Of a stretch of 64,000 nucleotides of DNA, positions 43,513-49,814 are shown piece after piece. Location of the stretch: contig JAHEXY010000002.1 in NCBI GenBank assembly GCA_023251875.1, forward strand, positions 1-64,000, written 5' to 3'. A model generated the notes under the pieces. The model searched no databases and was not told the DNA's origin. It saw only the letters and a list, made by a program, of their open reading frames with translations. The translations under genes and the position numbers were made by a program. Numbering within the stretch: position 1 is the first letter of the stretch; the number at the start of each line of letters is the position of its first letter. The DNA is from Bacteroidota bacterium (lineage in GTDB: Bacteria; Bacteroidota; Bacteroidia; JAHEXY01).

Positions 43513-44874
43513 TTAATTATTTCTCAAAATCACTTTCCCTTTGGGAATAGTTAAATACATGCCTCTGTCGAAAATTCTTTCTCCGCCTAAATAGGTTTGT
43601 TTTACAACTCCTTTTAATTGATGATTGAGATAAGGCGTTATTTTATGCTTATGCTGAATCATAAATTCGGTAACAACAAAACTTAATTCAGGACCCCAAA
43701 CAACTAAATCGGCATCATAGCCTTTTTCTATTTTTCCTTTATGGTTTTCTATTCCTAAAAACTGGGCAATGTTGTACGACATTAATTTATTTACATCAGC
43801 AATGGTAAATCCTTTTTCTTTGGCTTTGGTCCAAAAAGCAGGTAATGCAAATTGCAATCCTGCAATGCCACCCCAGGCCTTTACTAAACTTCCAGAATGT
43901 AATTCTTTTAAATCAGGCGTGGCGGGAGAATGATCAGTGGCAATAAAATCAATTAATCCATCTTTTAATGCTTGCCACAATTTTTCATTGTTTTCTTTTT
44001 CGCGTATGGGTGGAGCGCATTTATAACGCGTATCTGCATCAGGAATGTCTTCCGCATTAAAAAATAAATAATGCTGAGCTGTTTCAACAGTAATAGGCAA
44101 TCCTCTTTTTTTTGCTTCTGCAATTTGTTGTAATGAATTGGCGGAGGAAAGATGAACAATGTGTGTTCTGCATTTTGTTTCTTCACACAAACGAATGAGC
44201 ACTTCAATGGCTTTGTCTTCCCACTCTTTTGGCCTCGATGCTAAATATGATTTATACGAAGTAGGATTTTTTTTCAATTCTTCTATTCCTTCATTTGGTC
44301 CATCTAATTCAGCATGAACTAAAATCAGCGGGCACTCCCTCCCCTTCGGGGAGGGCTGGGGAGGGGTCATTGCCTTTCTCAACTCCTCTTCCTCCACATT
44401 TGGAAATTCATCAATACCTGAATGCGTCATAAAAGCTTTTAATCCCCAAACACCGGCATGCAATAAATTCTCTATTTCGTTCTCATTGTTAGGAATTAAA
44501 CCTCCCCAAAATCCACAATCAACATGTAATTTTCCTTTGCTTGCATTTATTTTTTCTTCTAATGCTGCCACCGTTGTAGTAACCGGACTCGCATTTAGCG
44601 GCATTTCAATTAATGTTGTAATTCCGCTTGCTGCGGCAGCTTTGGTAGCAGTTTCAAAACCTTCCCAGGCAGTACGCCCAGGTTCGTTAATGTGAACATG
44701 GGGGTCAATAAGCCCCGACATTATAACATCGTCTCCAAAATCTTCAAGCTTATAATTCTCATTTTCATATTTGCCAATGATCACATCTTCTATCTTGCCA
44801 TCATAAATTAAAATGGTAGCTTCCTTTAACTCACTAGAAATTAAAACACGCTTGCTATAAATAGATTTTTTCAT
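43513..44874 (-). CDS. allB: Allantoinase (dihydroorotase-like amidohydrolase) with an in-frame REP-like insert
   Basis: Cyclic amidohydrolase of 453 residues with the HxH metal motif GLIDPHVHINEPGR (about 54-67), the carboxylated-lysine region GLKAFMTHSGIDEFPNV (about 142-158), metal histidines in LVHAEL and HIVHLSSA, and DHSPATPDL. ETAQHYLFFNAEDIPDADTRYKCAPPIRE, AWGGIAGLQFALP and KGKIEKGYDADLVV fit AllB better than PyrC. AllB opens allantoin to allantoate in purine use. Between FPNVEEEELRKAM and LILVHAEL the sequence TPPQPSPKGRECP (about 169-181) is encoded by a CCCTCCCC-type REP element. No other ureide genes are nearby, so the substrate is inferred from motifs. Catalytic residues are intact. 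Confidence 0.82.
   Translation of the reverse strand: MKKSIYSKRVLISSELKEATILIYDGKIEDVIIGKYENENYKLEDFGDDVIMSGLIDPHVHINEPGRTAWEGFETATKAAAASGITTLIEMPLNASPVTTTVAALEEKINASKGKLHVDCGFWGGLIPNNENEIENLLHAGVWGLKAFMTHSGIDEFPNVEEEELRKAMTPPQPSPKGRECPLILVHAELDGPNEGIEELKKNPTSYKSYLASRPKEWEDKAIEVLIRLCEETKCRTHIVHLSSANSLQQIAEAKKRGLPITVETAQHYLFFNAEDIPDADTRYKCAPPIREKENNEKLWQALKDGLIDFIATDHSPATPDLKELHSGSLVKAWGGIAGLQFALPAFWTKAKEKGFTIADVNKLMSYNIAQFLGIENHKGKIEKGYDADLVVWGPELSFVVTEFMIQHKHKITPYLNHQLKGVVKQTYLGGERIFDRGMYLTIPKGKVILRNN
44335..44367. repeat. REP-like CCCTCCCC...GGGGAGGG palindrome, copy 6, inside allantoinase
   Basis: CCCTCCCC (44337-44344) and GGGGAGGG (44348-44355) close a TTC loop, followed by CTGGGGAGGGG. 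It is read on the minus strand as PPQPSPKGRE, a peptide that I recall as a recurrent insertion in Bacteroidota proteins. Confidence 0.88.
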
Positions 44875-44980: not shown

Positions 44981-45052
44981 CGATTTTGAGTAGAAATTAT
45001 AAATGTAAATTGGACTACAAATTTGTATATTTCTAAAAAAAACAGAACGCTG

Positions 45053-47368
45053 ATGACGCGGATGAGTAAGATAAAATATGATTTAGAAAAGATGGAAGTC
45101 GGGAGATGTGAAAGGGAAGCAACTTCTGTCTCCTGTCTTCCATCTTCTGACTTCCTCAAATTTATTTTCTGTTGTTTCTTTATCTCGCTTCATCTCGCTT
45201 CCTATTCTCAACAAAGCAAAATAGATTCTCTTATTACATTAATAAAAAATGATAGAGCGGATACAAATAAAGTAAATCACCTAAATATACTTGGCCGCAC
45301 ATTAATTTTTAGCAAGCCTGATACTGTTATTATTTTGAGTAAGCAAGCTATTGCAATTGCAGAGCTACTTGTAAATAAAAAAAGAGAGGGCATGCAATAT
45401 AATATTAACAGAAGCATTTCTTATGCCTATAATTTATTAGGGACAGCCTATAAGGTAGAAGGAAATTATTTTAATGCGATAGATTATTATTCTAAAGCTC
45501 TTAGTATTGACGAAGAAATAAAAGATAAAATAGGTGAGAGTAAACGTTTAGGTAATATTGGAACTATATATCAAGAGCAAGCTAATTATCCTAAGGCAAT
45601 AGATTATTATTTAAGAGCATTAAAAATAGGAGAGGAATTAAACAATAAAGACGAAATTGCCAGGCATCTTAGTAATATTGGAGGCGCATTTTGGTATAAG
45701 GGAGATACGCATAAGGCAATGGATTATTATTTAAAAGCATTAAAAATAAATGAAGAGGGAGAAGATAAAAACACAATGGCCAATACACTTGGTAATATTG
45801 GTCTCATCTATCAACAACAAGCCAATTATGCTATGGCATTTGATTATTTATTTAAGGCCTTAAAGATAAGTAGAGAAACACAAGATAAAACATCTGTCGC
45901 AAGGCAACTAAACAATATTGCATTAACATTTAATTTGCAAGCAAGAACAACGAGCGATTCTATTAATAAATTAGAGCTGTATAATCAAGCTTTAGATGGA
46001 TATTTTAGTACACTTAAAATTTATCGAGAAATTGGATTTGAAGAAGGAATCGCTTCTTGTCTTCAAAATATTGGGGAGGTATATATGTCTATCGGTAATC
46101 AATTAGAAGCTGAAAAAAATTTAATACAAGCACTTGAAATTGCCGATAGTAATGGATTCTTGAATGTGAAACTACTTTCAGAAGAAACAATCTATAAACT
46201 TTACCATGCAAGAGGGAAATACCAACTAGCCTACCAACATTATAAACAATACTCCCAAACCAAAGACTCTATTTTTAGCATAGAAAAAGTCAAAGACATT
46301 ACCCGCAAAGAAATGAATTATGAATTTGATAAAAAAGAAGCAGCCACCAAAGCCGAAAACGAAAAACAAATAGCTCTTGCTGAAATTGCTAAAAAAAGAA
46401 AACGAATTGTTATTTGGGCCATTATTGCAGGTATAATTTTGCTATCGTTTATTATTGTGGCTGTTGTTCGTTCGTTGCAAATAACACGTAAACAAAAGCT
46501 GGTAATTGAAAAACAAAAAACAATTGTTGATGAACAAAGAAAATTAGTTGAAAAACAAAAACATGCTATTGAGGAAAAGCAAAAAGAAATAATGGACTCT
46601 ATTCATTATGCTAAACATATACAAAAAGCCGTAATGAAGGGAGAAAAACATATTAAAACTCTTTTGAATAGCGAGCATTTCATTTTTTTTAAACCCAAGG
46701 ATATTGTAAGTGGCGATTTTTATTGGCTGAGTAAACGTGAAGATAAAATTTTAATTGCTGTGGCAGATTGCACGGGACATGGTGTTTCCGGTGGTTTTAT
46801 GTCGATGTTTGGGATGTTATTTTTATCTGAAATAGTTGAAAAAAAGGGCTTACTTAATCCGGCTGAAATTTTAACTGAAATGCATAAATCTGTTTTAGCC
46901 TCATTAAACCAAACAGAAGCCGATGTGCAAGATGGAATGGAAATGGTGTTGTGCAGTATTGATATTAAAAACAAAACTTTAGAATTTTCTGGAGCTATGA
47001 GTTCTTTATACTTAATTCAAAATCATAAACTCAAAGAAATAGAAGGTGATTATTTTTCAATTGGAGGCAAATCGTTATTTGGTGGTGATAATAAAGCCAA
47101 GTTTACAAATAAAACTATTTCCTTAGAAAAAGATACTGTATTATATCTTTTTACAGATGGTTATATGGATCAATTTGGAGGAGAAAGAAAAGAGAAATTT
47201 AATTTACCCAGGTTTGAAGAATTACTTTTGTCTATTAATAAAGAAAGCATGGCTTTCCAACAACAAAAATTAAATGACACATTTGAAAATTGGATAAAGC
47301 CATCGGCTAAACAAACAAGGGCCTACTCTCAAACAGATGATGTATTGGTAATGGGGATTAAAATTTAG
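45053..47368 (+). CDS. TPR-SpoIIE sensor phosphatase 1
   Basis: The protein has a signal or anchor segment (FIFCCFFISLHLASYSQQ), six or more TPR repeats in the periplasm (about 50-420, with YDYYxKALxI-type units), a membrane segment (IVIWAIIAGIILLSFIIVAVV), a coiled coil (RKQKLVIEKQKTIVDEQR) and a C-terminal SpoIIE/PP2C domain. That domain shows KPKDIVSGDFYW, DCTGHGVSGGFMSM, DGMEMVLCSID and FTDGYMDQFGG, with the metal-binding Asp residues present. This layout is of a membrane sensor that dephosphorylates a Ser/Thr-phosphorylated regulator (such as an anti-anti-sigma). The N-terminal segment MEVGRCEREATSVSCLPSSD comes from a translated phrase repeat. ATG 45053 is used; 45062 is an alternative. 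Its paralogue follows after 19 bp. Confidence 0.88.
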   Translation: MTRMSKIKYDLEKMEVGRCEREATSVSCLPSSDFLKFIFCCFFISLHLASYSQQSKIDSLITLIKNDRADTNKVNHLNILGRTLIFSKPDTVIILSKQAIAIAELLVNKKREGMQYNINRSISYAYNLLGTAYKVEGNYFNAIDYYSKALSIDEEIKDKIGESKRLGNIGTIYQEQANYPKAIDYYLRALKIGEELNNKDEIARHLSNIGGAFWYKGDTHKAMDYYLKALKINEEGEDKNTMANTLGNIGLIYQQQANYAMAFDYLFKALKISRETQDKTSVARQLNNIALTFNLQARTTSDSINKLELYNQALDGYFSTLKIYREIGFEEGIASCLQNIGEVYMSIGNQLEAEKNLIQALEIADSNGFLNVKLLSEETIYKLYHARGKYQLAYQHYKQYSQTKDSIFSIEKVKDITRKEMNYEFDKKEAATKAENEKQIALAEIAKKRKRIVIWAIIAGIILLSFIIVAVVRSLQITRKQKLVIEKQKTIVDEQRKLVEKQKHAIEEKQKEIMDSIHYAKHIQKAVMKGEKHIKTLLNSEHFIFFKPKDIVSGDFYWLSKREDKILIAVADCTGHGVSGGFMSMFGMLFLSEIVEKKGLLNPAEILTEMHKSVLASLNQTEADVQDGMEMVLCSIDIKNKTLEFSGAMSSLYLIQNHKLKEIEGDYFSIGGKSLFGGDNKAKFTNKTISLEKDTVLYLFTDGYMDQFGGERKEKFNLPRFEELLLSINKESMAFQQQKLNDTFENWIKPSAKQTRAYSQTDDVLVMGIKI
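45089..45146. repeat. GGAAGT/ACTTCC phrase hairpin in the 5' end of TPR-phosphatase 1
   Basis: AAGATGGAAG (45089-45098) pairs with CTTCCATCTT (45137-45146). In the loop GAAGCAACTTC (45116-45126) makes a small inner hairpin. It is inside the ORF, upstream of the signal core. Confidence 0.8.
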
Positions 47369-47387
47369 TAAAAGTATTTTAAATTAA

Positions 47388-49814
47388 ATGATGAAAGGGA
47401 TAAATTACCATAAGGTTATAGGGTTGGAAGTTGGAAGACCGAAGTCAGAAGCTACTTCCGTTTCCCGACTCCCGACTCCCGACTTCTGTCTTCCAACTTC
47501 CAGCTTTCTAAAACGTATTCTCTACTGTTTTTTTATCTCGCTTCATCTTTCATCTTTTTCTCAACAGAATAAAATAGATTCATTACTCACCCTGATAAAA
47601 AAGGATAAAGAGGATACTACCAAAGTAAATCATCTTCTAGATATTGGCGATCGCTTAGTAAAAAGCAGGCCTGATACAGTAATGGTTTTAGCAAACGAGG
47701 CCCTTTTGCTTTCTAAAAATCTTATTGAAAATACCAACGAGGGAGGTGATTTATGGATGATCGCTCAACTAGATAAAGCAAATGCCTTAATTCAAATAGG
47801 CGAAGCGTATTACTACCAAAATAATTATCCTCTTGCTTTGGAGACCTATAAGCATGAACAAAATGAATTAGAAGAAATTGAAGATCTCATTCCTAAAAAT
47901 AAATTACAGAAAGCAAAAAGTACAGAAGCAAAAATTTTACATAAAATAGGCTTGACGTATTATAGCCAAAGCAATTATGCTGATGCATTAGATGCTTACT
48001 CAAATGCATTACTAATAGAAGAACGAATAGAGGATAAAGATCTTATTTCATCTAGTTCAACTCAATGTGGTGTAATCTATAAAGTATTAGGTAATTATTC
48101 AAAAGCGTTGGAATATTATTTAAAGGCTTTAAAAATGGAAGAAGACTTAGGTAACCAAAATGATGTTGCAAGGCTTCTAGGAAATATAGGGGGGGTGTAT
48201 TATCAATCTGCAGATTATACCAAAGCATTGGATTATGTTTTTAGAGCCTTTCAAATTCATGAAAAATTAGGCAACAAACGCCAGTCGGCTTTGTGTTTGG
48301 GCAATATGGGAAATATTTATGCTGAACAAGGAGATTATCAAAACGCATTGGATTATAAATTTAAAGAATTAAAAAAGTATGAAGAATTAGGACAAAAACA
48401 AGGCATAGTAGAAAGTTTAGGTGGTATTGGTTCTATTTATTTGAAACAAGCAGATTACAATAAAGCCTTACAATATTATTTACAATCAGTTGAAAAAGCC
48501 AAGGGCGGAAATAAAGCTGTTCTGGCTCTTGAGCTTGGCGGCTTGGGCTTATCGTATGTAGCATTACACAAAAACCAAGAAGCCGAAACTTGTTTTAGAG
48601 AAGCAATTGTATTGAGTGATAGCCTTGGACTTTTAGATCATAAAATGCAAATTGAAAAAGCTCTTTCTGAACTTTATAGCAAATCCGGAAAAGATAAATT
48701 TGCGTATGAGCACTACAAAATATACGATGAAACAAAAGATTCTCTTTATAGTATTGAAAAAAATAAAGACCTCACCCGAAAAGAACTCAATTATGAATTT
48801 GATAAAACGGAAGCAGCTACTAAAGCTGAACATGAGAAACAAATAGCAGTAGAAGAAGCTTACAAGAAAAAACAATTGATTGTTATTTGGTCGGTAATTG
48901 GAGGTATGTTGTTGCTGGCCATTATTTTGATTGTAATTATTCGTTCCTTAAAAATTACACGTAAACAAAAAGCCGAGATAGAAAAACAAAAAGAAATTTC
49001 GGAGAGTCAAAAAATAATTGTTGAAGAACAAAAATTAGTAATTGAAGGCAAGCAAAAAGAAATAGTGAGTTCAATACATTATGCCAAGCGCATACAAAAA
49101 GCAGTAATTACTTCTCCGGCATACATCAAACAGCATTTAAACAGAGATCATTTTATTTTATTCGAACCCAAGGATATTGTGAGTGGCGATTTTTATTGGG
49201 CATTGCAACACAAAAACAAATTTTATATTGCTACTTCAGATTGTACGGGCCATGGTGTTCCGGGGGCATTTATGAGCTTGCTTAATATTTCGTTTTTAAA
49301 TGAAGCTATTCTCAAACGAGGCATTGTAGAGCCACATGAAATTTTAAATTACATACGAGATGAAATCATTAAAGCACTTAACCAAGAAGAAGCTGAAAGG
49401 GATCAAAAAGATGGTATGGATGCCATTTTATGTTGCTATGATTTTGGGGAAATGAAATTGCATTTTGCCGCTGCTAACAATCCTTTGTGGCTATTGCGCA
49501 ATGGAGAAATAACAGAATACAAAGCGGATAAAATGCCGGTTGGGAAATTCAATGAAGCAATAAAATCATTTACACTTCAAAAAATTGATCTTCAAAAAGA
49601 GGATATTATTTTTACCAGTACTGATGGATACGGAGATCAGTTTGGTGGACCTAATAACAAAAAAATAGGTAAGAAAACATTGAAAAATATTTTAATTGCC
49701 AATAGCACAAAATCCATGCATGAACAAAAGGCAATACTGTTCAAAACCTTTAATGATTGGAAAGAAAATGAAGAACAGATTGATGATGTAAGTGTAATTG
49801 GGCTTAAGATATAG
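47388..49814 (+). CDS. TPR-SpoIIE sensor phosphatase 2
   Basis: A paralogue of the preceding gene: signal core (RILYCFFISLHLSSFSQQ), about seven TPR-like repeats (about 60-450), membrane segment (LIVIWSVIGGMLLLAIILIVII), coiled coil (about 530-560) and SpoIIE/PP2C domain with EPKDIVSGDFYW, DCTGHGVPGAFMSLL, DGMDAILCCYD and STDGYGDQFGG. It keeps the consensus DCTGHGVPGA where paralogue 1 has DCTGHGVSGG. The N-terminal region LEVGRPKSEATSVSRLPTPD is translated from a phrase repeat at the same place as in paralogue 1. No partner STAS or anti-sigma gene is adjacent. Start ATG 47388 or 47391. The 19-bp spacing from the first gene suggests one operon. Confidence 0.88.
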   Translation: MMKGINYHKVIGLEVGRPKSEATSVSRLPTPDFCLPTSSFLKRILYCFFISLHLSSFSQQNKIDSLLTLIKKDKEDTTKVNHLLDIGDRLVKSRPDTVMVLANEALLLSKNLIENTNEGGDLWMIAQLDKANALIQIGEAYYYQNNYPLALETYKHEQNELEEIEDLIPKNKLQKAKSTEAKILHKIGLTYYSQSNYADALDAYSNALLIEERIEDKDLISSSSTQCGVIYKVLGNYSKALEYYLKALKMEEDLGNQNDVARLLGNIGGVYYQSADYTKALDYVFRAFQIHEKLGNKRQSALCLGNMGNIYAEQGDYQNALDYKFKELKKYEELGQKQGIVESLGGIGSIYLKQADYNKALQYYLQSVEKAKGGNKAVLALELGGLGLSYVALHKNQEAETCFREAIVLSDSLGLLDHKMQIEKALSELYSKSGKDKFAYEHYKIYDETKDSLYSIEKNKDLTRKELNYEFDKTEAATKAEHEKQIAVEEAYKKKQLIVIWSVIGGMLLLAIILIVIIRSLKITRKQKAEIEKQKEISESQKIIVEEQKLVIEGKQKEIVSSIHYAKRIQKAVITSPAYIKQHLNRDHFILFEPKDIVSGDFYWALQHKNKFYIATSDCTGHGVPGAFMSLLNISFLNEAILKRGIVEPHEILNYIRDEIIKALNQEEAERDQKDGMDAILCCYDFGEMKLHFAAANNPLWLLRNGEITEYKADKMPVGKFNEAIKSFTLQKIDLQKEDIIFTSTDGYGDQFGGPNNKKIGKKTLKNILIANSTKSMHEQKAILFKTFNDWKENEEQIDDVSVIGLKI
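47425..47502. repeat. GGAAGT/ACTTCC phrase hairpin in the 5' end of TPR-phosphatase 2
   Basis: TGGAAGTTGGAAGA (47425-47438) pairs perfectly with TCTTCCAACTTCCA (47489-47502), with GAAGCTACTTC in the loop. It is longer than the copy in the first paralogue and contains CCCGACT three times. It stays in frame. Confidence 0.85.

Follow-up and report, generated by a model that had tools for sequence, protein, structure and literature searches.

Two genes for TPR and SpoIIE-type phosphatase proteins within the window (the whole stretch of DNA that was analysed, 64,000 nucleotides in length) carry a repetitive hairpin in frame ahead of the signal core, raising the question of how such a repeat came to lie at the N-terminus of a protein and whether it is translated. 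The relevant features of the two genes, which we designated g1 and g2, are as follows.

45062..47368, + strand: g1, TPR + SpoIIE-type phosphatase protein, 768 aa from ATG 45062
45041..45065, + strand: leader segment AACAGAACGCTGATGACGCGGATG of g1, common to g1 and C11a (see below) only, by alignment
about 45089..45157, + strand: g1 heptad hairpin, translated as MEVGRCEREATSVSCLPSSDFL
45155..45214, + strand: g1 signal core LKFIFCCFFISLHLASYSQQ, beginning with CTC at the position of the start Met of a homologue
47388..49814, + strand: g2, TPR + SpoIIE-type phosphatase protein, 808 aa
47388..47430, + strand: outer end of the palindromic element in g2, holding the ATG-ATG starts and the codons MMKGINYHKVIG; model match at 47392-47430
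about 47421..47506, + strand: g2 heptad hairpin, translated as LEVGRPKSEATSVSRLPTPDFCLPTSS; three heptads longer than that of g1
47508..47567, + strand: g2 signal core LKRILYCFFISLHLSSFSQQ, beginning with CTA where a native start is presumed to have been lost

The first-pass annotation had described an in-frame hairpin before the signal core in both genes, and the nucleotide sequence and encoded peptides were confirmed as given there. The hairpins are built of purine/pyrimidine 7-bp units, GAAGNNN/CTTCNNN, and the peptides over the hairpin regions are MEVGRCEREATSVSCLPSSD in g1 and LEVGRPKSEATSVSRLPTPD in g2 (ATG at 47388). Predicted RNA energies were -33.9 kcal/mol for g1 (z -4.5 versus shuffles) and -42.1 kcal/mol for g2 (z -7.3 versus shuffles), and the hairpins are not due to chance. 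The g1 ORF is open from TTG 45023 and contains in-frame ATGs at 45053, 45062 and 45092, two of which fall within the leader segment. Similar arrays are a recurrent feature of this genome, where the pattern GAAGNNNGAAG-N1-30-CTTCNNNCTTC yielded 66 matches (33 per strand, nested matches counted) against none in a reversed control. We found 26 arrays in 1.16 Mb of its sequence, compared with an average of 0 in first-order shuffles, the sample having been chosen partly for arrays and being array-enriched as a result. Across the class, 41 of 395 members had at least one match to the pattern and few had many.

Where two paralogues had been counted initially, the genome has four such genes. In addition to g1 and g2, contig C11 carries C11a (start L106:7389) and C11b (start L106:9650 or 9734, the choice being uncertain as the earlier in-frame ATG overlaps the upstream stop at L106:9650), both with the hairpin at the same place. 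The hairpin was absent from three other paralogues in the same genome and from about 27 homologues examined, in keeping with the earlier view that the repeat is a newcomer rather than an old conserved part of the protein. A comparison of related genomes with and without the insert had also been proposed; this produced homologues without the hairpin, but no empty site for the insertion in the TPR genes among class-level relatives.

A gene tree based on the C-terminal part grouped the four carriers as ((g1,C11a),(g2,C11b)), each pair having a support of 1.0 and the group of four one of 0.93. Leader, array and core could be aligned among all four, which have in common a 3-nt loop, GAAG-NNN-CTTC, and an element end (described below) oriented alike. 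The leader motif of g1 was found in just two places within the sequence of this genome that was examined, namely g1 and C11a, and would mark the two genes of the pair as having been duplicated together. Because the tree is one of nested pairs and this leader is common only to g1 and C11a, the data point to one insertion, followed by tandem duplication and then duplication of the pair, as the simplest account. The first-pass annotation had offered both this type of history and two separate insertions; tree and alignment favour the former and not the latter. Two or more insertions at a preferred site in already separate paralogues might be suspected from the 5' cassette, which is more alike among the four (67-82% nucleotide identity within the hairpin) than the following TPR region (46-71%), as recent arrivals might be. 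We nonetheless judge such repeated insertion very improbable, given that the four genes agree in end orientation, loop length and lost start codon, are alignable from leader to core and form nested pairs, whilst gene conversion or a shared cassette history accounts better for the higher 5' similarity. Gene conversion may have contributed to the similarity of the cassette.

A conserved start codon downstream of the repeat was looked for, and codon inspection of g1 and g2 revealed no in-frame ATG, GTG or TTG between the hairpin and the hydrophobic core. If translation runs through the hairpin, indels in multiples of three are expected, and those in the translated segment of the four coding copies were of 3, 18 or 21 nt only by alignment. 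The repeat, which had been called almost certainly translated, is thus most likely translated, judging from four open paralogues without a usable downstream start and from their frame-preserving indels. Alternatively, the hairpin could be an untranslated leader, with translation beginning further downstream, either from a rare codon, the ATT of KFI, or through some unusual mechanism, and with the open frame being coincidental. Chance alone often leaves heptad arrays open (92 of 132 frames, compared with 56 of 132 when shuffled), and at mnmA-, dapF- and rsmD-like genes an in-frame array is followed by an obvious downstream ATG. The four paralogues, however, offer no such codon, an ATT start would delete the sole Lys/Arg ahead of the core, and their indels contrast with the difference of 14 nt between the orthologous intergenic arrays L210 and L213 of the congeneric genomes G005 and G088, so that we consider an untranslated leader unlikely. 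Intergenic arrays in these two genomes change length by whole heptads regardless of frame; in another orthologous pair (L209/L215), one arm has grown by 18 heptads (126 nt).

Codon-position changes among the coding copies were distributed differently along the N-terminus. The signal core and what follows displayed a clear position-3 excess (9, 11 and 30 changes at positions 1, 2 and 3), the hairpin a weak one (11, 8 and 17) and the segment before the hairpin none (9, 7 and 7). Since the excess is weak in the hairpin and absent before it, the hairpin-encoded peptide may be tolerated rather than selected or useful. The 7-nt unit length itself may explain how repeats of this kind become coding, as stops are rare in any frame and length can change by 21 nt without breaking the gene.

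The hairpin was found to be part of a larger palindromic element, in which outer ends of the form TTATAC-N8-GGATAAATT-NN-YGCAT surround a hairpin of 7-bp GAAG/CTTC units. Inverted ends, GGGATAAATTTCCGCAT, were seen in the array flanks of another family (G005/G088). A first end model trained on G005/G088 only gave 12 weak matches in 1.16 Mb of sequence from the genome under study, six of them beside arrays, including those of C11a and g2. We then used a second model, retrained with copies from this genome but with the TPR genes left out, which placed an end directly upstream of the hairpins of C11b (E 3e-5), C11a (E 3.1e-5) and, more weakly, g2 (10.0 bits, versus a maximum of 6.3 in 600 random segments). 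Over the g2 codons concerned (47388..47430), g2 is 79% identical in nucleotide sequence to the high-scoring C11a. The nine best matches of this model in the 1.16 Mb all abut arrays, with seven of the nine sites wholly or partly in the training set. A pattern search for the end also matched at C11:691385-691414 and C11:693727-693756, the places of C11a and C11b. The left end of g1 was too diverged to give a detectable match by the end model alone. A right-hand end in the TPR genes was sought and not retained, as no significant model score was obtained to the right of the arrays in any of the four; the 15-mer AAATTTATTCTCTGC, common to the TPR genes and to a TPM gene after its array, is at most a suggestive relic of it.

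The position of the element end changes the reading of the start codons. The first-pass annotation had placed the repeat between the start codon and the core, whereas the start lies inside the outer end of the longer element in at least C11a, C11b and probably g2; in C11a, for example, the end sequence TTATATGATGTACGGGATAAATTACCACATT reads MMYGINYHI. The first 32-40 codons of the four TPR-phosphatase paralogues, start codon included, correspond to element end plus hairpin. The event looks like capture of a start codon from a leader element and not like insertion between a start and a core that were already in place. Insertion downstream of a native ATG, within a long n-region that already existed, would require the resemblance to the element end to be coincidence or later convergence. 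Some homologues do have longer n-regions (L080, C20a), and the start region of g1 has no element-end score, but the model match extends over the start codons of both C11a and C11b, is also seen in g2, and is echoed by the pattern search; we therefore find insertion into an existing n-region distinctly unlikely.

Copies of the element elsewhere were informative as to its nature. Both terminal inverted repeats are present at L118 in this genome (25 and 27 bits), in G005/G088 and in 11 copies in genome G373. The G373 copies are 153 bp long, near-identical, have the same ends and are dispersed at different places (L301-L311), constituting a recently active family, but they carry a different inner hairpin (CTTCGACAAGCTCAG / CTGAGCTTGTCGAAG). 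Diverged copies are also present in the genome under study, one of which, at C19:168432-168520 (L300:1432-1520), is compact, at 89 bp, and retains both outer ends but hardly any inner hairpin. The element looks mobile and, given the differing hairpin in G373 and its near absence in the C19 copy, its ends are conserved while its inner phrase is exchangeable. The GAAG/CTTC phrase can accordingly be regarded as the replaceable interior of a larger element whose ends are conserved, providing a handle on how these repeats of Bacteroidota move.

In L078, the homologue closest at the N-terminus, ATG-AAA occupies the position at which all four paralogues have AAA preceded by CTC or CTA, and the distance from CTC-AAA to the IDSL motif is 22 residues, equal to that from ATG-AAA in L078. 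Given this replacement at equal IDSL spacing, the native start has probably been lost and replaced by the element-borne one. The argument draws chiefly on one close homologue (L078), with which the usual spacing agrees, a Met being found 22-24 residues before the conserved DSL motif in several homologues without the hairpin; n-regions are longer in L080 and C20a, as mentioned above.

Taken as a whole, these data make it likely that the element landed once, gave the gene a start codon and an n-region, and then passed through two rounds of duplication. A small palindromic, non-autonomous, MITE-like element would have inserted at the beginning of an ancestral TPR-phosphatase gene or immediately ahead of it. 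Afterwards the native ATG-AAA would have been lost, its position now being CTC or CTA plus AAA, with an ATG within the outer end of the element becoming the new start. Since stops are rare in heptad arrays whichever frame is read, the ORF could then continue across the hairpin as far as the signal core, giving an n-region of 32-40 residues. Tandem duplication of the gene, and duplication of the pair as a block, would have produced four paralogues with the same start. From these sequences we infer in which order the events took place, that translation begins at the ATG carried by the element and that the product is exported. One of the G373 copies (L311), which ends 12 nt upstream of the ATG that opens a signal-peptide gene, may by analogy offer a modern picture of the presumed first step.

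The first-pass annotation had also suggested that the n-region of signal peptides is a tolerated landing site for such repeats, which was not borne out by the wider distribution of arrays. Although 81% of the sequence is coding, 20 of the 26 arrays in this genome lie outside long ORFs. The six inside ORFs comprise four in the TPR family, one in a TPM gene and one in a doubtful ORF that is mostly array. When a crude signal-peptide test was applied, genes just downstream of arrays passed at about the rate of genes overall (37%), and hence neither the 26 arrays nor their downstream genes supported the n-region as a preferred site. Separately, arrays were often found no more than 15 nt from both stops between convergent genes (e.g. 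L235, L237, L241, L222 and L258), in a terminator-like, bidirectional arrangement. An array at L119:10321-11004 (C19:220802) forms, in frame, the first ~60 residues (MRKTEDRRREIEDGRRK...) of a 227-aa ORF, and this part of the ORF is possibly a spurious extension.

Arrays located in an n-region without a downstream start amounted to one event with four descendants, as described above, and one in genome G317. In the latter, the whole apparent signal sequence of a DUF5715 gene (L227:2901-3662), MEERRKK...YLLSSLFFLLFVISLSDC, is encoded by heptads, first purine and then pyrimidine, and no start codon follows; the gene represents one further independent case. A TPM-domain gene (L112:7040-7906; C5:17106) was a further candidate, with an in-frame array and, in common with the TPR genes, AAATTATTCTCTGC before the signal core, but was downgraded since a TTG in frame immediately behind the array yields an ordinary signal peptide, MKNKIILC.... 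A more general reading, which we hold to be doubtful, is that the element acts as a portable signal-peptide starter, a landing in a leader giving a gene a new start and n-region. Equally tentative is its molecular rationale, whereby the purine arm would encode a charged n-region, the pyrimidine arm and outer end would supply Leu/Ser/Phe and K-F-I-like stretches, and the ends would carry GTG or ATG starts.

One precedent is the enterobacterial element RU-2, a small palindromic mobile repeat that supplies the start of a predicted signal peptide, the homologues having unrelated signal sequences (Delihas 2007, PMC2759123). Both cases involve a small palindromic mobile repeat that gives a signal-peptide start and is absent from homologues, whereas here element, phylum and gene are different, four paralogues carry the repeat in frame, with their start codon situated within the terminal repeat of the element. 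Rickettsia palindromic elements (RPEs) are found in numerous unrelated genes, at varied positions. By comparison, the present element occupies one gene lineage as an N-terminal extension, with the shared property of a repeat in frame within an otherwise intact gene, here absent from homologues. RPEs are described as palindromic repeats in frame within protein genes (Ogata et al. 2000, as summarized in PMC2759123 and PMC3733652). The GTAG/CGTC REP elements associated with RAYT transposases are short palindromes, mostly intergenic and sometimes intragenic (PMC3733652), unlike the element in the TPR genes, in which an exchangeable hairpin is flanked by outer ends of about 30 nt. A link to Y1/RAYT transposases was rejected, as none of the seven Y1_Tnp genes in the genome had an array within 1.5 kb and no convincing element end was found at these loci (best E 0.13). 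A link to 23S rRNA-IVP ORFs was likewise dropped, the five IVP loci having no arrays nearby. The element resembles prokaryotic MITEs (reviewed in PMC10969869) in being non-coding, with inverted ends and many near-identical copies (153 bp in G373), but differs in that no direct repeat indicative of target-site duplication was visible by eye at the flanks of the 11 G373 copies and no transposase with the same ends was found (seven Y1_Tnp loci checked). Rfam returned no match at gathering, with only sub-threshold microRNA-like hairpin matches, and literature searches found nothing for the heptad strings and only unrelated human and viral papers for the end and inner-hairpin strings. The mechanism is thus like that of the RPE and RU-2 precedents, whilst the element itself was not found in Rfam or in the literature searched. 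Its interest lies in providing a traceable bacterial case in which a mobile palindrome appears to have supplied a start codon and N-terminus that were fixed and carried through two duplications.

A different palindromic repeat, CCCTCCCCGAAGGGGAGGG, was observed on the minus strand of the window at 44335-44367, where it is read in frame as TPPQPSPKGRE within a dihydroorotase-like ORF (43513-44874). A similar repeat, CTCTCC-AAGG-GAGAG, occurred at 12 places in the sequence of this genome that was examined, and is present between C11a and C11b (L106:9669).
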